This document shows, piece by piece, positions 51,172 through 60,400 of a stretch of DNA of 64,000 nt. Each line of letters starts with the position of its first letter. The first letter of the stretch is position 1. The position numbers and the translations under genes are program-made. Below the pieces are notes generated by a model, which saw nothing but the letters and a program-made list of their open reading frames with translations, made no database searches and was not told where the DNA came from. Source of the DNA: an uncultured Lachnospiraceae bacterium (GTDB taxonomy: Bacteria > Bacillota > Clostridia > Lachnospirales > Lachnospiraceae); assembly GCA_947382625.1 (NCBI GenBank), contig CANDAG010000010.1, positions 47,320 through 111,319 on the forward strand, given 5' to 3'.

Positions 51172-51957
51172 ATGCTTACAAAAATAAGAGAGATATTAAA
51201 TTATAGAGATATGATTCACAGCTTAGTTAAAAGAGAACTAAGAGGGCGGTATCAAAAATCCGTACTGGGGTTCCTTTGGTCATTTATAAGCCCTTTATGT
51301 CAGATAGCTGTATTCACAATCGTGTTTACCTATGTGTTTCCAAGTAATATCCCTCGATATTATATATATCTGATGACGGGTATGATACCCTGGCAATTTT
51401 TCTCTGATTCAATTTCACAAGGAAGTTGTGCCATTATATATAATGTAGATATGACTAAAAAAATATATTTTCCAAGAGAAGTTCTGGTTATTTCTACGGT
51501 GTCAGCGAAGTTTGTAAATTTATTGCTGTCATTAGTGGTAGTATTTGGCTTTATTATGTTTTCCGGAATTGGGTTTAGTCCGTTGATTATTCTTTTGCCG
51601 TATGCCTTGGTGGTTGAGTATATAGTTGCGCTGGGATTTGGATTGCTGTTTGCAGCTATAACAGTTTATTTAAGAGATATGGAATATGTGGTAAATGTTA
51701 TTTTAATGGTATGGATATGGGCGACTCCGATTATGTATTCAATAGATTCTTTGACAGGAAGTTATCCATGGATTGCATCAGTTTTACGTATAAACCCATT
51801 GACTTCTATCATGAATTTATTCCGAAATATTCTATATAACCATAGCTTACCAGAGTTAATAGATATAGCGTTGCCATTTGTGTGGGGAGTTATTTTACTC
51901 CTTGTTGGTGAATTAGTATTTAAGCATTTAGAAGGTAATTTTGCGGAGGAACTTTAA
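51172..51957 (+). CDS. wzm: ABC-2 type polysaccharide export permease (Wzm/TagG-like)
   Basis: 261 residues with six membrane segments. LVKRELRGRYQKSVLGFLWS near 18 is the amphipathic interface motif of this family, and YLRDMEYVVNVILMVWIWAT near 168 is the second diagnostic block. It forms the channel of an ABC exporter that moves a finished polysaccharide across the membrane. AGAGGAAA precedes the ATG. The Wzt gene starts inside its stop codon (TAATG), so the two are made together. Teichoic acid or O-antigen-like polymer are both possible cargoes. Confidence 0.9.
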   Translation: MLTKIREILNYRDMIHSLVKRELRGRYQKSVLGFLWSFISPLCQIAVFTIVFTYVFPSNIPRYYIYLMTGMIPWQFFSDSISQGSCAIIYNVDMTKKIYFPREVLVISTVSAKFVNLLLSLVVVFGFIMFSGIGFSPLIILLPYALVVEYIVALGFGLLFAAITVYLRDMEYVVNVILMVWIWATPIMYSIDSLTGSYPWIASVLRINPLTSIMNLFRNILYNHSLPELIDIALPFVWGVILLLVGELVFKHLEGNFAEEL

Positions 51958-53312
51958 TGAAAAAAAGTGACGATGTGGTAATAAGGGTAGATAGCGTAAA
52001 GAAATATTTTAAAGTATATCCGGATAAAGGGAAAACGCTTAAAGAAAAAGTCCTTTTTTTAAAAAGAAATAGATATGAGCTTAGAGAAGTATTAAAGGGA
52101 ATTAGTTTTGAAGTGAAGCGGGGAGAAGCGATTGGACTGATTGGTAAAAATGGCTGTGGAAAGAGTACGACATTAAAGCTTTTGACGAGAATATTGAGAC
52201 CAAATGAAGGTACGATCACAATTGAAGGCAGAGTATCTAGCTTGATTGAACTTGGCGCGGGATTTCATCCAGATTTGACGGGAAGAGAGAATATTTATAT
52301 TAATGCTTCTATATTTGGAATTAAGGCTAAAGAAGTAAAGGAAAGAATGGATGATATCATTCGCTTTTCAGAGCTAGAAGAATATATTGACAATCCTGTT
52401 AGAACATATTCATCCGGGATGTATATGAGATTAGCTTTTTCTGTTGCCATCAATGTTGATGCAGATATTCTGCTGATTGATGAGATCTTAGCAGTTGGGG
52501 ATATGAATTTTCAAGAAAAATGTTTTCATAAACTGCAGGAGATTAAACGTAATGGTACTACAATTATTATCGTATCGCATTCACAGGATCAGATCAAGAA
52601 AATTTGTGATAGGGCAATCTGGATTGATGAAGGATTAATACGCGAAGAAGGAGTAGCGAAACTGATTTGTAGGGAATATGAGTTATGTATGAATGGGAGA
52701 AGGGCGGATCGCGCTAAAAAGGAAGCTGAGGCGGAACTACAAAAGCTAAAGAAAGAAGCAGAAGCAGCAAAGGAGAACGAGGAGCTTCAGAAAAGGTTAA
52801 AAAGAGAACGGGATTTAATGAATTTGTCCTGCAGAGATATTTGCAGGTTGTGTAGTCCGGCTGCTCATAGAGAAGGTAATTGGAAGATAAAATACACAAA
52901 TGTCAGATTAGTAAACTCGCAAGGTCTTGAAACTGAGGAAATATGTTTTGGAGAACCAATTAAAATTGAAATGGAATATGTCAGTATACAGGAGGGACTG
53001 CTTGCCAATTTTATTGTTGGCATTACAAGGGACGATTGGGTATACTGTTTTGGAAGCACCAGCGAAATTGTTAATAAAGGGTATTCCAAGGTGAATAAGA
53101 AAGGAAAAGTTACATTTAAAATAGACAGCTGTTCTCTGGCAGAAGGAAGATATTATGTAGATGTTAGAATAAAGGATGAAAATGATGAGGTATATGATAA
53201 TGTTTTTAGTTTGATGGAGATTAGGGTAAAAACAGAAATGAAGTATGGATGGGGAATTGTATCAATGCAAAACCAATGGTTAATAGATAATGAGTCAATA
53301 AAAGGTGATTGA
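51957..53312 (+). CDS. wzt: Polysaccharide export ATPase with C-terminal cargo-binding domain (Wzt/TagH-like)
   Basis: 451 residues. ATPase: Walker A GLIGKNGCGKSTTLKLL near 61, signature YSSGMYMRLAFSVAI near 151, Walker B DILLIDEILAVGD near 170 and the switch histidine IIIVSHSQDQ near 200. A charged helical linker (about 248-285, RADRAKKEAEAELQKLKKEA) leads to a beta-rich domain (about 300-445, including GEPIKIEMEYVSIQE and LAEGRYYVDVRIKDEND) of Wzt C-terminal type. In E. coli O8/O9a this domain binds the modified non-reducing end of the O-antigen and so couples termination to export. The gene directly downstream encodes a possible terminator enzyme. GGAGGA precedes the ATG. Confidence 0.9.
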   Translation: MKKSDDVVIRVDSVKKYFKVYPDKGKTLKEKVLFLKRNRYELREVLKGISFEVKRGEAIGLIGKNGCGKSTTLKLLTRILRPNEGTITIEGRVSSLIELGAGFHPDLTGRENIYINASIFGIKAKEVKERMDDIIRFSELEEYIDNPVRTYSSGMYMRLAFSVAINVDADILLIDEILAVGDMNFQEKCFHKLQEIKRNGTTIIIVSHSQDQIKKICDRAIWIDEGLIREEGVAKLICREYELCMNGRRADRAKKEAEAELQKLKKEAEAAKENEELQKRLKRERDLMNLSCRDICRLCSPAAHREGNWKIKYTNVRLVNSQGLETEEICFGEPIKIEMEYVSIQEGLLANFIVGITRDDWVYCFGSTSEIVNKGYSKVNKKGKVTFKIDSCSLAEGRYYVDVRIKDENDEVYDNVFSLMEIRVKTEMKYGWGIVSMQNQWLIDNESIKGD

Positions 53313-53313
53313 A

Positions 53314-56300
53314 ATGATATTAAAAGAACAAGATGGGAAACAAGTATACTCGGATGGTCAGGAGATAGAAAAGAGTTTGCTGAATATAGCAGAAAATTAT
53401 CCAGAAGATGCGTCACAAGATTATATTTCAAGTAATAGCGAATACACTATAAATAATACTTTCTCTGCGGTACGTCAGAATTTATTAAATTGGTATCCGT
53501 TTAAAAAAGATGCAGATATAATAGAAGTTGGAGCCGGGGCTGGAGCATTAACTGGAATGCTTTGTAATAAAGCCAGGCAGGTTACAGCTATAGAAATGAG
53601 CCAAGCAAGAGCGGATATTATTCGGGCTCGATATCCACATAGGGAAAATTTGCAGGTTATTAGTGCAGACATTACAAATTGGGATACCGAACAGCGTTTT
53701 GATTATGTGGTATTTGTTGGCGTTTTAGAATATGCGGGAGCTTTTTCTGATGTTTTAAACCCGTATGAGAGATTTCTGGATTCTTGCAGGCGATTACTAA
53801 AAAAAGATGGGATTGTTTTGTTTGCAATCGAGAATCGGTTTGGATTAAAGTATTGGCTGGGAGGGGCTGAGGATCATTTACAAAAGCCATTTGTTGGTAT
53901 AGATGGATATAAAGGGATAAGAAATGCCAAGACATTTTCCAGACATGACTTAGAAGCTATGTTGGATAATGTTGGCTTGTTGGAGCATAGGATATATTCT
54001 GTTTATCCAGATTATAAATTTCCTGAAATTATCTGTACAGATGAGTTTAAACCAAGTTATATGAATTTAAAAAAAGTTCATTTTACGTTTGGCAAAAACA
54101 GCATGCTCACTGCAAATGAAACTGATCTGTATAAATATTTAATAGAAAATAATGTCTGGGAATTTTTTGCTAATTCGTTTTTGGTTGAAGCTTCTGAAGG
54201 GGAGCTGCCAGAGAACCATGTGATTCATGTATCAGCAAAAGGAGAATGTAAGAAAGAATATCGTGTTAACACGGTTATTTATAGTAACGGAGAGATTCTA
54301 AAAGTTCCGGTTCATCGACTGGCAATAAGGCATATTCAACAGATATATGAAAATAATAAATTATTAAAAGCCAGAGGTGTTCACATTCTGGATTTAGATG
54401 TAAAGGAAGGGAATCTGGTTAGTCATTTTTACAAAGCTCCAAGTGCTCAAAGCTATTTTGAAGAACTGGTAGCAGATAACAATTTGCCAGCTATATATAC
54501 ACTTGTTGAAAATTGGAAAAAAGAAATATTAAAGAGTAGTGACACTATAAAAGATGGAAATATTGTTTATGAATTATCTAATATAAATCCTCGTCTGGAT
54601 TATGGTCCTATTTTAAAGGACGGATTCATAGACATGACATTTTATAATTCTTTTATAGAGGATGGTAATTTAATATTTTATGATCAAGAATGGAAATTCC
54701 CGAATGTACCTTTGAATTTTATTGTGTATTATGGATTGAAATCTTGTTTTAAAAGAATGCAGGTATTGACAAATATTTCATTAGAGAATATTTTGGAAAA
54801 TTTTAATATAGATAGAGAACAGCAGGCAGTATATGATAAGTTGGAAGATTATGTTTGGTCTAAGATACTATATAGGCAGACAGATTTTTATGGCGAAGAT
54901 GGATACTGTATGCGTTATTCTGATGCATTACGATTGGAGCAACAGAGAATGCAGGAACAGGATGACTATAAAAATGAAATTGAAAATTTGAAAAAAGATA
55001 TACTGGAAAAGGAAGATGAAATAGAAAAAAAAGAAAAAATGATAAAACAAAAGGAAGAGGAGATAAAGCAAAAGGATATCCAGATTAATAATCAGAGAGG
55101 GCATATAGAACTGCTTTTAGAATCTGATAGGCATTACCAGCGCATTTTGGATTCCAAAGGATGGAAATTAGTGAGTTTTCCAGGACGTGTGTTCGAAAGA
55201 ATGTTTCCAGTTAGCACGCGGAGAAGAACAAGGCTCAGTTTGCTTAGTAAGTATTTGAAAGCTATAAATATAACAAATATTAAATTTGTCTATGGAGCGT
55301 TTCGCCAGGGTGGATTTAGAGCAATAAATAGGGAGTTGAGCGAATTTGACCAGCGTATGAGAGGAGCCATGGTGACGCCGGTAGAAGTGCCGGAGATCAT
55401 TAAGACAGGGCAAATTGAGGATATTAGTCAATGTCGTAAGCTGGTGTTTAAGAAATTTGAGGATCCGATAGTATCCATTATAATACCTGTTTATAATCAG
55501 TTTACTTATACGTATAATTGCTTAAAATCTATTGCAGACCACAGCGGGAAGGTATCTTATGAAATTATCATAGCTGATGATGTATCAGATGATTTGACCA
55601 TGAGATTGTCTGAGGTGGTAGAGAATATTCATATTATACGAAATAGTACGAACATGGGCTTCCTTTGTAATTGTAACAATGCGGCAAAATATGCATCAGG
55701 AAAATATATTCTGTTTTTGAATAATGATACTCAGGCGCAGGAAAATTGGCTTCAGCCATTGGTAGATCTAATTGAAAGTGATAACACAATTGGTATGGTT
55801 GGATCTAAATTGATTTATCCGGATGGCTCACTTCAGGAAGCAGGAGGGATTATATGGAGAGATGGAACGGCATGGAATTACGGAAATGGGCAGAATCCGG
55901 ATGCACCGGAGTTTAATTATGTCAAGGAGACCGATTATATTTCAGGGGCAAGTATTATGATAAAGGCTTCTGTTTGGGAGGAAATAGGCGGTTTTGACGA
56001 AAGATATCAACCGGCTTATTGCGAAGATTCCGATTTGGCCTTTGAGGTGAGAAAGCATGGATATAAGGTCATGTATCAGCCGCTTTCGGTGGTTGTGCAT
56101 TTTGAAGGAATATCCAATGGAACAGATGAGTCAGGAGGTATTAAGCATTACCAGCAGGTTAACAGGAATAAATTTTACGATAAGTGGAAGAATGTGCTGG
56201 AAAATGAACAGGATGAGAACGGAACAAATGTGTTCAGGGCACGCGAAAAAAGTCAAAATAGAAAAATATTGCTTATGGTAGATCATTATGTACCCCAATA

Positions 56301-57357
56301 TGACAAGGATGCGGGCTCAAGAACCTTATATCATTATTTAAAAATATTTGCATCGAAGGGGTATTCAATCAAGCTTATTGGTGACAATTTCTTTAAACAT
56401 GAACCATATACAACTGTATTTCAGCAGATGGGGATAGAGGTGCTGTATGGAGTTTATTATGCACAGAATTGGCAAAACTGGGTCAAAGCAAATGGCAGGG
56501 AGATTGACTATATATGGCTTAATCGCCCACATATCAGTATTAAATATATTGATATTTTAAAAGAATACACCGATGCCAAAATTATGTATTATGGGATGGA
56601 TCTGCATTTTCTTCGTGTACAGCGGGAATATGAAGTTTCACATAATAAGGCATTAATTGCGGAAAGCGAGGAATGGAAAGAGAAAGAATTTTATTTGATG
56701 AAGAAGGCAGACATAAGCTATACGCCTTCAGAGGTAGAGGTTGATGTGGTTCATCAAATTGATCCGGATATTTCCATGAAAGCAATAAAAGCGTTTGCGT
56801 ACGAGAACTTCAGGGATGATATTCCCGAAAACTTTCGCGAACGAAAGCATATAATGTTTGTCGGCGGGTTTACACATACCCCCAATGAGGATGCTATGCT
56901 ATGGTTTGTGAAGGAAGTGTTCCCTTTAATTTTGCATAGAATGGATATTATGCTTTATATTGTGGGGTCTGCTCCAACCTCCAAAATAATGGATTTAAAA
57001 AGTAAAAATGTTATTGTAAAAGGTTTTTTGACAGATAGCGAGTTACAAAACCTATACGATACGTGTAAAATGGTTGTAGTGCCTTTACGTTATGGGGCTG
57101 GGGTTAAGGGTAAGGTAGTGGAGGCGATGTATAATGGATTACCTGTGATTACAACTTCGATAGGGGCAGAAGGAATTATAGGTATTGATGATATTGTTGC
57201 CATAGAAGATGAAAAAGAGGGATTTGCAGATCGAGTATGCAGTTTATATGAAAATCCGGATGAACTTGAAAGATTATCAATGGCAGAACAAAAATACATG
57301 AAGGATAATTTTAGTACGGAAGCTGTGTGGAGCATTATCCAGTCAGACTTTAACTAG
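53314..57357 (+). CDS. Giant WbdD-like methyltransferase-kinase-coiled coil fused to GT2 and GT4 domains
   Basis: 1347 residues. (1) SAM methyltransferase, about 45-250: IIEVGAGAGALTGML near 69, YVVFVGVLEYAG near 131. (2) Kinase-like domain, about 285-510: ILKVPVH near 328 (candidate ATP Lys), YENNKLL near 345 (candidate Glu), DMTFYN near 440 (D-x4-N loop) and, 12 residues after that Asn, the Asp of YDQEW near 457. (3) Coiled coil, about 543-600, Lys/Glu-rich. (4) GT2, about 715-960: SIIIPVYNQFTYTYNCLKSI, FLNNDTQ, EDSDLAFEVRKHGY. (5) GT4-like, about 980-1340: HIMFVGGFTHTPNEDAMLWF and VPLRYGAGVKGKVVEAM. Domains 1-3 follow the order of WbdD, which caps O9a O-antigen with methyl phosphate and sets its length. 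The chain-capping role is inferred. The ATG at 53314 follows AAAAGGTGA. Confidence 0.8.
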   Translation: MILKEQDGKQVYSDGQEIEKSLLNIAENYPEDASQDYISSNSEYTINNTFSAVRQNLLNWYPFKKDADIIEVGAGAGALTGMLCNKARQVTAIEMSQARADIIRARYPHRENLQVISADITNWDTEQRFDYVVFVGVLEYAGAFSDVLNPYERFLDSCRRLLKKDGIVLFAIENRFGLKYWLGGAEDHLQKPFVGIDGYKGIRNAKTFSRHDLEAMLDNVGLLEHRIYSVYPDYKFPEIICTDEFKPSYMNLKKVHFTFGKNSMLTANETDLYKYLIENNVWEFFANSFLVEASEGELPENHVIHVSAKGECKKEYRVNTVIYSNGEILKVPVHRLAIRHIQQIYENNKLLKARGVHILDLDVKEGNLVSHFYKAPSAQSYFEELVADNNLPAIYTLVENWKKEILKSSDTIKDGNIVYELSNINPRLDYGPILKDGFIDMTFYNSFIEDGNLIFYDQEWKFPNVPLNFIVYYGLKSCFKRMQVLTNISLENILENFNIDREQQAVYDKLEDYVWSKILYRQTDFYGEDGYCMRYSDALRLEQQRMQEQDDYKNEIENLKKDILEKEDEIEKKEKMIKQKEEEIKQKDIQINNQRGHIELLLESDRHYQRILDSKGWKLVSFPGRVFERMFPVSTRRRTRLSLLSKYLKAINITNIKFVYGAFRQGGFRAINRELSEFDQRMRGAMVTPVEVPEIIKTGQIEDISQCRKLVFKKFEDPIVSIIIPVYNQFTYTYNCLKSIADHSGKVSYEIIIADDVSDDLTMRLSEVVENIHIIRNSTNMGFLCNCNNAAKYASGKYILFLNNDTQAQENWLQPLVDLIESDNTIGMVGSKLIYPDGSLQEAGGIIWRDGTAWNYGNGQNPDAPEFNYVKETDYISGASIMIKASVWEEIGGFDERYQPAYCEDSDLAFEVRKHGYKVMYQPLSVVVHFEGISNGTDESGGIKHYQQVNRNKFYDKWKNVLENEQDENGTNVFRAREKSQNRKILLMVDHYVPQYDKDAGSRTLYHYLKIFASKGYSIKLIGDNFFKHEPYTTVFQQMGIEVLYGVYYAQNWQNWVKANGREIDYIWLNRPHISIKYIDILKEYTDAKIMYYGMDLHFLRVQREYEVSHNKALIAESEEWKEKEFYLMKKADISYTPSEVEVDVVHQIDPDISMKAIKAFAYENFRDDIPENFRERKHIMFVGGFTHTPNEDAMLWFVKEVFPLILHRMDIMLYIVGSAPTSKIMDLKSKNVIVKGFLTDSELQNLYDTCKMVVVPLRYGAGVKGKVVEAMYNGLPVITTSIGAEGIIGIDDIVAIEDEKEGFADRVCSLYENPDELERLSMAEQKYMKDNFSTEAVWSIIQSDFN

Positions 57358-57372
57358 AACTGAGGGAATACT

Positions 57373-58383
57373 ATGATCATCACTAAGACACCATTTCGAA
57401 TGTCCTTTTTTGGCGGCGGCACAGATATGCAAGATTATTTTCAACAATATGGCGGTTCTGTCCTGTCTACAACATTTGATAAATATTGTTATGTAACAGT
57501 AAGACATTTGCCGCGTTTTTTTGAGTACAAGACACATCTTACATATTCTCAGATGGAATATGTGAATACTTATGATGAAATTCAGCATCCGGCAATCCGA
57601 AATGCTATGAAGATGCTGGATATGCACGAAATCAGACTGACATATGAATCAGATCTGCCGGCACGTTCAGGACTAGGAACCAGTAGTTCATTTGCGGTAG
57701 GAATGTTAAATGCCTTTTATGCTTTGAAGGGGAAATATGCAGATAAAAAGAAACTGGCTGATCAGGCCATCTATTTAGAGCGCGTACTATGCAATGAGAC
57801 TGGTGGGTGGCAGGATCAGATAGCAGCATCATTTGGGGGATTTAACCGAATTAATTTTAATGCAGAAGGATACGAAGTGCTTCCGGTTATTATTTCACCA
57901 GAAAAAAAAGCACAGCTGAATAAGAATTTAATGCTATTTTTCACAGGATTTTCAAGATTTTCGGCGGACATTCAAAAGGCTAATAAATTAGATAATGGCA
58001 GTCAATTAAGTAAATTAAGGGAAATACATGAGTTTGTAGACATTGCCGAAAAAGTTTTGACAGATAAAGAAAGTAGCTTGGATGAATTCGGGAGATTGCT
58101 TAATGAGAGCTGGAAAATTAAACGGAAAATAGGATCAGCAGTTACAACGGATAGCATAGATGCAATTTATGAGAAGGGTATAAAAGCCGGAGCACTGGGA
58201 GGAAAACTTTTAGGCGCTGGTGGAGGTGGTTTTTTATTATTTTATGTGCAGCAGGAGCAACAGAGCAGTGTAAGAGCAGCTATGAAAGACTTATTGAATG
58301 TGCCATTTGAATTTGAAAATGAGGGAACACGTGTGATTTATTATTCACCGGAAAGTTATGAATCAGTAGAGAATATGTCATAA
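57373..58383 (+). CDS. hddA: D-glycero-alpha-D-manno-heptose 7-phosphate kinase
   Basis: 336 residues, GHMP kinase fold. TPFRMSFFGGGTDMQDYF near 5, the ATP loop SDLPARSGLGTSSSFAVGML near 93 and ALGGKLLGAGGGGFLLFY near 275 are the three GHMP motifs in the form typical of HddA. It phosphorylates D-glycero-D-manno-heptose 7-phosphate at O1. The two next genes supply the other steps of the GDP-heptose route (nucleotidyltransferase plus phosphatase, and isomerase), which supports this specificity over fucokinase or similar. GAGGGAA precedes the ATG. Confidence 0.88.
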   Translation: MIITKTPFRMSFFGGGTDMQDYFQQYGGSVLSTTFDKYCYVTVRHLPRFFEYKTHLTYSQMEYVNTYDEIQHPAIRNAMKMLDMHEIRLTYESDLPARSGLGTSSSFAVGMLNAFYALKGKYADKKKLADQAIYLERVLCNETGGWQDQIAASFGGFNRINFNAEGYEVLPVIISPEKKAQLNKNLMLFFTGFSRFSADIQKANKLDNGSQLSKLREIHEFVDIAEKVLTDKESSLDEFGRLLNESWKIKRKIGSAVTTDSIDAIYEKGIKAGALGGKLLGAGGGGFLLFYVQQEQQSSVRAAMKDLLNVPFEFENEGTRVIYYSPESYESVENMS

Positions 58384-58406
58384 GAAATACTATGGGAAGA
58401 ATTTTT

Positions 58407-58415
58407 TGATATAAT
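58407..58415 (+). promoter_or_regulatory. Extended -10 before the hddC-gmhB fusion gene
   Basis: TGATATAAT, an exact extended -10, 22 bases before the GTG start. The -35 region is poor, so this may be a weak internal promoter. Confidence 0.35.
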
Positions 58416-58436
58416 TGATGACAGGGAGGCAAAGCT

Positions 58437-59747
58437 GTGAAGGTAGTTATAATGGCCGGGGGCAGAGGTACCAGAATTTCGTCAATAGCTAATGATATTC
58501 CGAAACCGATGATTCCTATAAATGGAAAACCTGTATTAGAATATGAACTGGAAGGCCTTCGGAACCAGGGATTTACTGATATTATTTTAACAGTAGGCTA
58601 TCTGGGACAAGTCATTATAGACTATTTTGGAGACGGAGACGGAACATCCCCGGTAACTGGTAAGCCGTTTGGGGTGCATATTACTTATTACTTTGAAAAA
58701 GAACCATTAGGAAATGCCGGAGCACTTTTTAAAATACGGGATCAATTAACGGAAGATTTTTTGCTGCTTAATGCGGACGCTATGTTTGATGTGGATTTTA
58801 AACGGTTTGTTGCATATCACAAAGCACATGGAGGGTGGGTAACCTTATTTACACATCCTAATAGTCATCCTTTTGACAGTGGGTTGATTTTTACCGATGA
58901 AAACAATGTAGTGCAGAGATGGTTGTCAAAAGAAGATGTCAGGCCTCTATATTATAATAATTGTGTCAACGCCGGCCTTCATGTGATATCCCCCAACGTA
59001 TTGGAACAGGAAATTGAGGGTGAAAAAATAGATTTGGACAGGCAACTGCTTAAGCCTTTGGCAGCAACTGGAAAGATGTATGCATATCATAGCCCTGAAT
59101 ATGTGAAAGATATGGGGACTCCTGAGCGTTACCAAGGGGTTTGTTCGGATTTAAAGAACGGAGTTATTCAGTCAAAAAACTTGAGAAATTGTCAAAAAGC
59201 TATTTTTTTGGATCGAGATGGAACGATTAATCAATATGTAGGATTTTTGAAAGATATTGATGAATTTGTATTGTTACCTGGCGTGGCGGAGGCTGTCAGA
59301 CTGATCAATGCAAAGGGGTATTTAGCGATTGTTGTTACGAATCAGCCGGTAATTGCCCGCGGAGATATTAACAGAGCGCAGTTATTGGAAATACATAAAA
59401 AGATGGAAACATTATTAGGCTTGGAAGGGGCTTATCTTGATGCGGTTTATTACTGCCCTCATCATCCGGATAAGGGATTCGAAGGAGAGATTCCGGAATT
59501 GAAGATAAAGTGTGATTGTAGAAAGCCGAAACCAGGAATGCTCTTACAGGCAGCAAAGGAATATAATATAGATTTATCTGAATCGTGGATCGTTGGTGAT
59601 GGAGAAAATGATATTAAAGCAGGAAAAGCAGCCGGATGTAATACTGCTTTGGTTTCAAATGACAAGTCATTTTGGGGACAGGATATTACGGGGAACTCTT
59701 TACTGGAGTGTATGCAGCAAATATTTAGTCAGAGAGAAAATGGGTAG
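58437..59747 (+). CDS. hddC: Fused heptose-1-phosphate guanylyltransferase (HddC) and heptose bisphosphate phosphatase (GmhB)
   Basis: 436 residues, GTG start behind GGGAGG. Residues 1-235 are a sugar nucleotidyltransferase: VIMAGGRGTRISSIANDIPK near 3, EKEPLGNAGALF near 85 and LLLNADAMFDVDF near 112. Residues 252-436 are a HAD phosphatase of GmhB type: IFLDRDGTINQYVG near 256, VVTNQPVIARG near 300, the zinc ligands YCPHHPDKG near 339 and CDCRKPKPGM near 359, then IVGDGENDIKAG near 385. One polypeptide would thus remove the 7-phosphate and then form GDP-D-glycero-alpha-D-manno-heptose. The fusion and its neighbours hddA and gmhA complete the pathway. Confidence 0.88.
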   Translation: MKVVIMAGGRGTRISSIANDIPKPMIPINGKPVLEYELEGLRNQGFTDIILTVGYLGQVIIDYFGDGDGTSPVTGKPFGVHITYYFEKEPLGNAGALFKIRDQLTEDFLLLNADAMFDVDFKRFVAYHKAHGGWVTLFTHPNSHPFDSGLIFTDENNVVQRWLSKEDVRPLYYNNCVNAGLHVISPNVLEQEIEGEKIDLDRQLLKPLAATGKMYAYHSPEYVKDMGTPERYQGVCSDLKNGVIQSKNLRNCQKAIFLDRDGTINQYVGFLKDIDEFVLLPGVAEAVRLINAKGYLAIVVTNQPVIARGDINRAQLLEIHKKMETLLGLEGAYLDAVYYCPHHPDKGFEGEIPELKIKCDCRKPKPGMLLQAAKEYNIDLSESWIVGDGENDIKAGKAAGCNTALVSNDKSFWGQDITGNSLLECMQQIFSQRENG

Positions 59748-59752
59748 GCGAA

Positions 59753-60400
59753 ATGGAAGATAAATTATTAAGGCATATTGATTCTCTTATAAGCAGGTAT
59801 CCGTGCTTAGCGGTGATTAAAAATAGTATTATAGACGCTTATTTATTGCTGGAAGAATGCTATATGAATGGCGGAAAGCTTCTGGTTGCCGGAAATGGAG
59901 GTTCCGCTGCAGACGCAGAGCATATTGTGGGCGAATTAATGAAACGTTTTAAGATAGCAAGACCGATTGGAGTAGAACTGCAAAAAACGTTGGTGAACAT
60001 TGATCCGGTACGCGGAAAATCATTAGCACAGAATTTGGAATGCCCATTAGCGGCGATAGCTCTCGTTTCGCATGAAGCATTGACGACGGCTTATATTAAT
60101 GATGTAGGCGGTGCAGGGATGTATGCGCAGCAATTACTTGGATATGGGAGAGAAGGAGATGTTTTTTTAGGTATTTCTACTTCCGGCAATAGTGAAAATA
60201 TTATTGAAGCATCGGTGGTTGCGAAGGCAATGGGAATTAAGGTAGTGGGACTGATAGGAAATAATGGTGGCGAGTTGAAAAGGATTGCAGATGTTGCCGT
60301 ATGTGTGCCGGAGATGGAAACCTTTATGGTGCAGGAATTACATTTGCCAATATATCATTGTTGGTGTATAATGTTGGAAGAATTTTTTTTTAGCGAATAA
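59753..60400 (+). CDS. gmhA: Sedoheptulose 7-phosphate isomerase
   Basis: 215 residues, SIS fold. LLVAGNGGSAADAEHIVGEL near 43 and FLGISTSGNSENIIEA near 138 are the phosphosugar-binding loops of GmhA. It makes D-glycero-D-manno-heptose 7-phosphate from sedoheptulose 7-phosphate, the first step of the route. The N-terminal half has a longer region after the first loop (KRFKIARPIGVEL to SLAQNLECPL), normal for the GmhA branch. It starts six bases after the fusion gene. A promoter for the next gene lies in its 3' end. Confidence 0.9.
   Translation: MEDKLLRHIDSLISRYPCLAVIKNSIIDAYLLLEECYMNGGKLLVAGNGGSAADAEHIVGELMKRFKIARPIGVELQKTLVNIDPVRGKSLAQNLECPLAAIALVSHEALTTAYINDVGGAGMYAQQLLGYGREGDVFLGISTSGNSENIIEASVVAKAMGIKVVGLIGNNGGELKRIADVAVCVPEMETFMVQELHLPIYHCWCIMLEEFFFSE
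60344..60372 (+). promoter_or_regulatory. Promoter inside gmhA for the downstream membrane protein genes
   Basis: -35 TTGCCA (60344-60349), a 17-base spacer, -10 TATAAT (60367-60372). Hexamers and spacing equal those of the promoter at 17519-17547. The leader to the next gene would be about 110-150 bases. Confidence 0.5.

Follow-up and report, generated by a model that had tools for sequence, protein, structure and literature searches.

Within a 64,000-nucleotide stretch of DNA from an uncultured Lachnospiraceae gut bacterium (assembly GCA_947382625.1, contig CANDAG010000010.1, positions 47,320 to 111,319 of the forward strand; hereafter the window), we identified a long open reading frame (ORF) that joins a methyltransferase (MT), a hidden kinase-like domain (KIN), a coiled coil, and two glycosyltransferases (GTs) of the GT2 and GT4 types in a single chain, directly after the genes for a Wzm/Wzt-type ABC transporter. 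We judge it slightly better than an even chance that this chain is a combined polymerase and capping terminator for the polysaccharide exported by the adjoining Wzm and Wzt. The paired MT and KIN domains (MT-KIN) recur across the family in the company of Wzt_C, the cargo-reading domain of Wzt. A broader proposal, which we hold tentatively and at a little below even confidence, is that pump and capping enzyme form a matched code in Lachnospiraceae. Wzt_C classes would sort with capping chemistry (an MT-kinase for class 1, and for class 2 other enzymes that include MT-only ones), sometimes within one polypeptide, and the window would be a natural re-pairing of a class-2 transporter, an MT-kinase head, and a polymerase of a third lineage.

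The features of the locus are listed below. Residues are numbered from the GTG at 53305; subtracting three gives the numbering of the 1347-residue form.

51172..51957 (+): Wzm-type permease (ABC2_membrane), 261 aa; Pfam PF01061, 5.4e-16
51957..53312 (+): Wzt, 451 aa, with ABC ATPase, linker, and C-terminal cargo domain; Pfam ABC_tran and Wzt_C
52863..53267 (+): Wzt_C cargo-reading beta domain, class 2, Wzt residues 303-437; Pfam, 61.7 bits
53305..57357 (+): MT-KIN-coil-GT2-GT4 chain, 1350 codons from GTG 53305 or 1347 from ATG 53314
53305..54099 (+): S-adenosylmethionine (SAM) methyltransferase, MT, residues 1-265; Pfam match at 72-169
54100..54849 (+): KIN, predicted APH-like kinase domain, residues 266-515; hhalign of the 85-row profile against an APH profile
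54301..54303 (+): Lys333, which pairs with the APH strand 3 lysine; 85 of 85 rows and the APH alignment
54631..54690 (+): putative catalytic stretch, D443-x4-N448 ... D460-Q-E462; 85-row alignment
54901..55158 (+): predicted coiled coil, residues 533-618; heptad proxy
55450..56199 (+): GT2 domain, residues 716-965; Pfam match at 724-851
56305..57354 (+): GT4 domain, residues 1001-1350; Pfam Glyco_trans_1_4 (GT group 1) at 1181-1317
57373..60400 (+): hddA-like gene, hddC-gmhB-like fusion, and gmhA-like gene; NCBIfam heptose models

The frames of Wzm, Wzt, and the long ORF are all open, and the three genes are tightly packed with overlapping ends. The ATG at 53314, which has AAAGG just upstream and gives 1347 residues, is likely the true start of the long chain. 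The first-pass annotation, made from the letters of this DNA, had described the order MT, kinase-like domain, coil, GT2, and GT4, and Pfam, the KIN profile, and our coil measure bear it out. It had also placed the chain directly after a Wzt with a linker and a C-terminal cargo domain, as ORFs and Pfam confirm, and had pointed to D443-x4-N448 followed 12 residues on by the D460 of DQE, which is indeed what the sequence reads. The MT keeps ExGxGxG at 74-80, E97, and Y143, with N-T in place of Y51-H52. The coil, a charged stretch at residues 533-618, was located with a heptad measure of our own, which recovers 46 aa of the WbdD coil and 42 aa in P0005, a Pseudomonas protein discussed below, and which finds a region of at least 60 aa in 12 of 400 background ORFs of at least 300 aa. 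By the same proxy, seven of nine other GT2-GT4 chains carry a coil before GT2.

KIN is very probably a kinase-family domain, judging from profile comparison and residue conservation. In an alignment of 85 of 97 KIN stretches, with near-duplicates and rows with long inserts left out, every row has Lys333, Asn448, Asp460, and Glu462, and 84 rows have Asp443. The profile of this alignment matched a profile built from 29 APH-family proteins (of 30 loci) of related genomes with an hhalign probability of 84.8, an E-value of 6.6e-6, and a score of 46.1. Lysine falls on lysine, D-x4-N on D-x4-N, and Asp460 on the Asp of the APH IDF motif. A strand-3 lysine, a D-x4-N motif, and a metal-site Asp are features of APH/choline-kinase-like proteins, and KIN has all three. 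A chance motif is ruled out by the control profiles (five unrelated, 30 column-shuffled, and one reversed KIN profile), which scored at most 19.7. When each of the 85 rows was searched singly against Pfam, one APH match was obtained, at 0.003. A likeness to JAK1, seen at 4e-4 with a 40-row profile, reached just 0.3 with a KIN-only profile and was not used. The window chain itself keeps the full kinase core (K333, D443, N448, D460, and E462) as well as its SAM motif.

The association with Wzt_C was examined in 150 Lachnospiraceae genomes, one per genus. Locus maps were drawn for 60 regions picked from the survey matches and for 80 loci kept of at least 575 relatives from named genomes. MT-KIN is found in 78 of the 150 genomes; 76 have both MT-KIN and Wzt_C, 17 only Wzt_C, two only MT-KIN, and 55 neither. 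The first-pass annotation had suggested such a family-wide survey, and MT-KIN proved to be tied to Wzt_C: 72 of 84 MT-KIN loci are preceded, on the same strand and at a distance of up to 6 kb, by a Wzt_C, which rules out that MT-KIN is rare near Wzm/Wzt. That annotation had also considered it damaging to its idea if these domains were common away from Wzm/Wzt. They are uncommon there across the family (12 of 84 loci lack a Wzt_C nearby) but common in the clade to which the window KIN belongs, as described below. Within the genus of the window genome, 36 of 37 genomes carry MT-KIN.

The 113 Wzt_C matches form two score classes, 77 at E up to 1e-34 (class 1) and 36 weaker (class 2), by a cut set after the scores were seen. 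MT-KIN lies within 6 kb downstream of 71 of the 77 class-1 domains, and within 600 bp of 63. In two genomes of the genus, Wzt and MT-KIN form one chain beside Wzm: one of 1213 residues elsewhere in this genome (L003:11027-14668, minus strand), where Pfam confirms ABC, Wzt_C, and MT, and one of 1217 residues in genome G169 (L246:6523-10173, plus strand). In both, the putative reader and writer of the cap appear to be physically fused. Divergence of Wzt_C and KIN remained correlated after removing that of the nucleotide-binding domain (NBD) of Wzt (partial r 0.30, 0 of 200 permutations), and KIN against NBD given Wzt_C gave 0.03 (44 of 200), in distance tests on 91 of 103 loci (near-identical ones dropped) that overstate significance among related loci. 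We also observed two MT-KIN copies at three loci (L111:6974-9511, as one 846-residue chain, L130, and L159).

Neighborhoods of class-2 Wzt_C were taken for 20 of the 36 loci, and eight proteins from them were scanned with Pfam. Five of the eight, in the slot of the terminator, are MT proteins without a kinase match, and at two further class-2 loci (L198 and L202) our own MT profile detects an MT-like ORF next to Wzt. Behind the class-2 Wzt_C nearest to that of the window comes a chain of 996 residues, ordered MT-coil-GT4-GT2, with a WsaE-like layout (L191:127-3117, minus strand). A small ORF of 138-159 residues with an INVxxIMxxI-like start was noted near class-2 Wzt genes at L184:4648-5088, L185:8868-9314, L190:5888-6364, and L193:1319-1732.

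By sequence kinship, the window locus is a mosaic of three lineages: MT-KIN, transporter, and GT2-GT4. The window KIN falls in a 14-row DQE clade with support 100/99 in the 85-row tree; three of the 13 other rows have a Wzm/Wzt-type match (L130, L132, and L159). The transporter is of class-2 kinship. The ten best matches of the window Wzm are all Wzm genes of class-2 loci, at 41-47% identity, and the Wzt NBD shares 66-75% identity with its ten closest matches, again all from class-2 loci, versus 41-45% with those of the GT2-GT4 loci. The window Wzt_C scored 64.5 bits (E 2.9e-17) in the family survey and is 34% identical to its nearest relative, at L191. The polymerase part is 59-67% (GT2) and 39-52% (GT4) identical to the same ten GT2-GT4 loci. 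All ten have a DYEW or DCEW kinase that matches the window KIN no better than E 0.04, and Wzt_C is class 1 in nine of them, the nine being those covered. A congener, G164, carries an MT-KIN gene with the DQE motif and, roughly 3 kb away, a separate, 52% identical GT2-GT4 gene; their cluster also holds a 243-residue ABC gene.

In the mechanism that we propose, GT2 and GT4 would extend a lipid-linked chain with sugars, while the coiled coil would act as a spacer for the MT-KIN head, putting it within reach of sufficiently grown chains only. KIN would then use ATP to place a phosphate on the non-reducing terminal sugar, and MT would use SAM to add a methyl group to that phosphate, ending growth. 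The C-terminal domain of Wzt would bind the capped end, leading to export. This reading draws on the domains and their order, the operon, the kinship of KIN to kinases, the catalytic residues, the kinship to the O7 type via P0005, and the linkage to Wzt_C; the pairing of the nearest class-2 Wzt_C with an MT-GT4-GT2 chain was also counted in its favor. From analogy with the O7, O9a, and O12 systems we infer the substrate, the methyl-phosphate product, and the ruler function of the window chain, and the window Wzt_C would be the reader of the window cap.

Several observations weigh against the combined polymerase and terminator. The window KIN (254 aa) has no Pfam match at E up to 1, and a phmmer search of window residues 1-612 against the PDB returned MT matches and one coil match but no kinase. 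By tblastn, the match of the window chain to P0005 is limited to the MT. Six residues that are nearly invariant elsewhere are lost in the window (Y51N, H52T, Y232S, P233V, R315C, and R476Y). Among class-2 Wzt_C, just one of 36 has MT-KIN within 6 kb downstream, and that one is the window. Ten of the 13 other DQE rows (L009, L085, and L090, and L100-L106) have no Wzm/Wzt-type ABC match in the stretches examined, several of which are cut by contig ends. In 15 ordinary class-1 MT-KIN ORFs, the coil proxy gave no match after KIN; its three matches lie inside KIN or at its end. Besides overstating significance, the distance tests gave 0.09 for KIN against Wzm given Wzt_C (6 of 200 permutations) and 0.26 for Wzt_C against Wzm given NBD. 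Finally, the congeneric KINs are mostly beside or fused to cytidylyltransferases, and it is here that the strongest alternative arises.

Under that alternative, which we regard as unlikely, MT-KIN would be a decorating or cytidine diphosphate (CDP)-alcohol-type enzyme acting on a small alcohol or side-chain sugar, and its position after Wzt would be incidental. Of 12 congeneric loci, two (L246 and L250) are ordinary Wzt-linked ones. In the other ten, a CTP_transf_like domain is the next ORF in five (L240, L241, L243, L244, and L247), the second next in one (L242), and fused to MT-KIN in three (L248, L249, and L251), with none seen in L245. The KINs of these ten are the closest to the window KIN among congeners (E 2e-26 to 2e-7, versus 0.05 and 1.4 for L246 and L250). 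The DQE motif was found by pattern in five of the ten; the pattern missed five of the 12 congeneric chains (L241-L245), although BLAST aligns their KIN to that of the window. A KIN with a weak or undetected MT is fused to a cytidylyltransferase at L009:9158-11416, L248:6972-9224, L249:7424-9661, and L251:8080-10299. Such arrangements suggest a route from kinase to CDP compound, and MT-KIN may serve another purpose in these relatives. L009 further has LicD on the same contig, and it shares with the window and L085 an S-V in place of Y-P at 232-233. Yet the window contig has no PF01467 or LicD (PF04991) match, the window keeps the SAM motif that L009 and L085 have lost, and its MT-KIN, joined via the coil to GT2-GT4, comes behind a Wzt that has a cargo domain. 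The islands that hold L100-L106, whose MT-KINs are closely related to that of the window, contain ORFs that, named by eye from translations, are LicD-like, CMP-sugar-synthase-like, and phosphonate-gene-like.

A methylation-only cap, as proposed for WsaE and for E. coli O8 WbdD, with KIN structural or acting elsewhere, is somewhat less likely still. It would fit the kinase-less MT proteins in the slot of the terminator at class-2 loci (five of the eight scanned, picked from 20 loci) and the loss in the window of R315, kept in all 13 other DQE rows, and of R476, kept in 12 of them. On the other hand, K333, D443, N448, D460, and E462 are all retained, and the lost Y51-H52 pair belongs to the MT part. 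That the window protein arose through an assembly error, or through a recent recombination that left it without function, is very improbable. Its three sources (a DQE-type MT-KIN, GT2-GT4 of another lineage, and a class-2 transporter) and the presence of the whole chain in one of 37 genomes of the genus, the window alone, might suggest this, but none of its 1350 codons is interrupted, its kinase and SAM motifs remain, and an in-frame mis-join is unlikely; the two neighboring genes of G164 also speak against it.

The genes that follow the terminator (57373-60400) probably supply D-glycero-D-manno-heptose. NCBIfam heptose models lead or rank high for them, all below their curated cut-offs, and generic HAD domain models alone exceed cut-offs. 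Because these genes follow the long chain, the polymer of the window locus may include heptose.

If the combined polymerase and terminator is correct, a scheme established for Gram-negative O antigens, in which chains receive a phosphate-methyl cap and export is quality-controlled, would be common in Gram-positive Lachnospiraceae. It would there be a device so far without a name, and an NCBIfam scan of the window chain found no model up to its cut-off. Many reader-writer pairs occur naturally in this system, in two genomes as a single chain, and one case is re-paired. Cap recognition by Wzt_C and the setting of chain length thus become testable by comparison and domain exchange.

Among known systems, the first-pass annotation had likened the chain to WbdD of E. 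coli O9/O9a. The likeness holds for the order of MT, kinase, and coil, for the gene order wzm, wzt, terminator, GT, and for the D-x4-N ... D pattern, but not for kinase homology. In the E. coli HS O9 locus, the genes run wzm, wzt, a 708-residue gene, and wbdA, and the third was taken to be wbdD on the basis of its position and residue numbering. Against residues 205-475 of this protein, the KIN profile gave an hhalign probability of 0.5 (E 0.13), which is no match and on which orthology of the window chain to WbdD was rejected. The WbdD kinase matched the same APH profile at a probability of 95.7, and the D-x4-N is common to the window (D443), P0005 (D443), and E. coli HS WbdD (D351). KIN thus appears APH-like, and homology to the WbdD kinase is unsupported beyond that broad class: the two fail to match by profile though both are APH-like. 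WbdD also differs in having no GT domains; it caps mannose with methyl phosphate and recruits a separate polymerase, and in the window the GTs belong to the same chain.

The nearest characterized enzyme appears to be ORF6 of the Klebsiella pneumoniae O7 locus. In the accessible text of its report (PMC11231755), ORF6 comprises an MT, an unannotated 223-residue AmiN-like domain, an immunoglobulin (Ig)-like module, a coil, and two GT2 domains. In vitro, it adds phosphate to the terminal rhamnose at position 3, and some of this phosphate becomes methylated; its kinase activity is gone in a D441A mutant (PMC11231755). We reached it through P0005, a 1457-aa plasmid protein of Pseudomonas asturiensis that carries two GT2 domains and whose gene immediately follows those of an ABC permease and an ATPase of 455 residues. 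P0005 has all six published O7 SAM-site residues (Y28, Y66, G91, G93, E112, and Y158; PMC11231755) at identical numbers. It matches the L003 MT-KIN over 98% of the length of the latter (1e-43), and its KIN matches the KIN profile (97.3, E 2.5e-11). Because P0005 shares the O7 SAM residues and has both of these matches, we place the MT-KIN family with the O7 type, the final link to ORF6 being the published residue numbers. Through P0005, those residues fall on conserved positions of the MT-KIN family; compared in this way, the window has equivalents of five of the six, with N51 for Y66.

In the O7 type, export requires a chain end that has been phosphorylated and methylated. ORF6 and the window chain are alike in an N-terminal MT, a hidden kinase (catalytic D441 in ORF6; D443 retained in the APH-like domain of the window), a coil before C-terminal GTs, and an ABC-transporter system. 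They are unlike in that ORF6 has a Gram-negative host and a GT2 as its second GT, where the window has GT4, and in the loss of several conserved residues from the window chain. The two may also differ after the kinase: against 20 class-1 tails, which hold the module following KIN, window residues 515-715 gave no match (probability 0.1), and P0005 gave a weak one (52.3, E 1.4e-4). Class-1 MT-KINs carry at residues ~560-700 a beta-rich domain with YxDxGxGF...RxDP (e.g., L040:8782-10881), perhaps the Ig-like module of ORF6. The accessible text characterizes O7 orthologues through the MT, the unannotated domain, and the coil; the Ig-like module may therefore not be defining, and the orthologues named there are alphaproteobacterial, gammaproteobacterial, and cyanobacterial (PMC11231755).

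Three further systems are compared here from partial accounts of them. WsaE of Geobacillus stearothermophilus NRS 2004/3a, from an overlapping wzm-wzt-wsaE arrangement, is a Gram-positive single chain with an MT and two GTs and is proposed to cap and stop growth. By its description, it stands apart in its 2-O-methyl cap, its three domains, and its lack of a kinase, and the window chain departs from the WsaE type in having a kinase-family domain. WbbB of K. pneumoniae O12 likewise joins a terminator, a coil, and two polymerizing GTs in one chain, but its cap is Kdo, with no phosphate or methyl. The Legionella Lcin_0519 kinase-methyltransferase family, known from bioinformatics and likened by description only, has MT-kinase and often a coil, with Wzt, Wzm, or GT neighbors in some genomes, and its named taxa are Proteobacteria. 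Two parts of the idea in the first-pass annotation have precedents: polymerization and capping in one chain are already published for O7 ORF6 and O12 WbbB, and WsaE is a published MT-plus-two-GT terminator from a bacterium without an outer membrane. In partial lists of open-access literature, covering titles and abstract starts, we met no O7-type MT-kinase in Gram-positives and no Wzt-MT-kinase fusion. Published work already includes capping MT-kinases, polymerase-terminators in one chain, and a Gram-positive MT-GT-GT terminator; what appears to be new is the spread of MT-KIN in Lachnospiraceae, its linkage to Wzt_C, and the genomes in which Wzt and MT-KIN are one chain.

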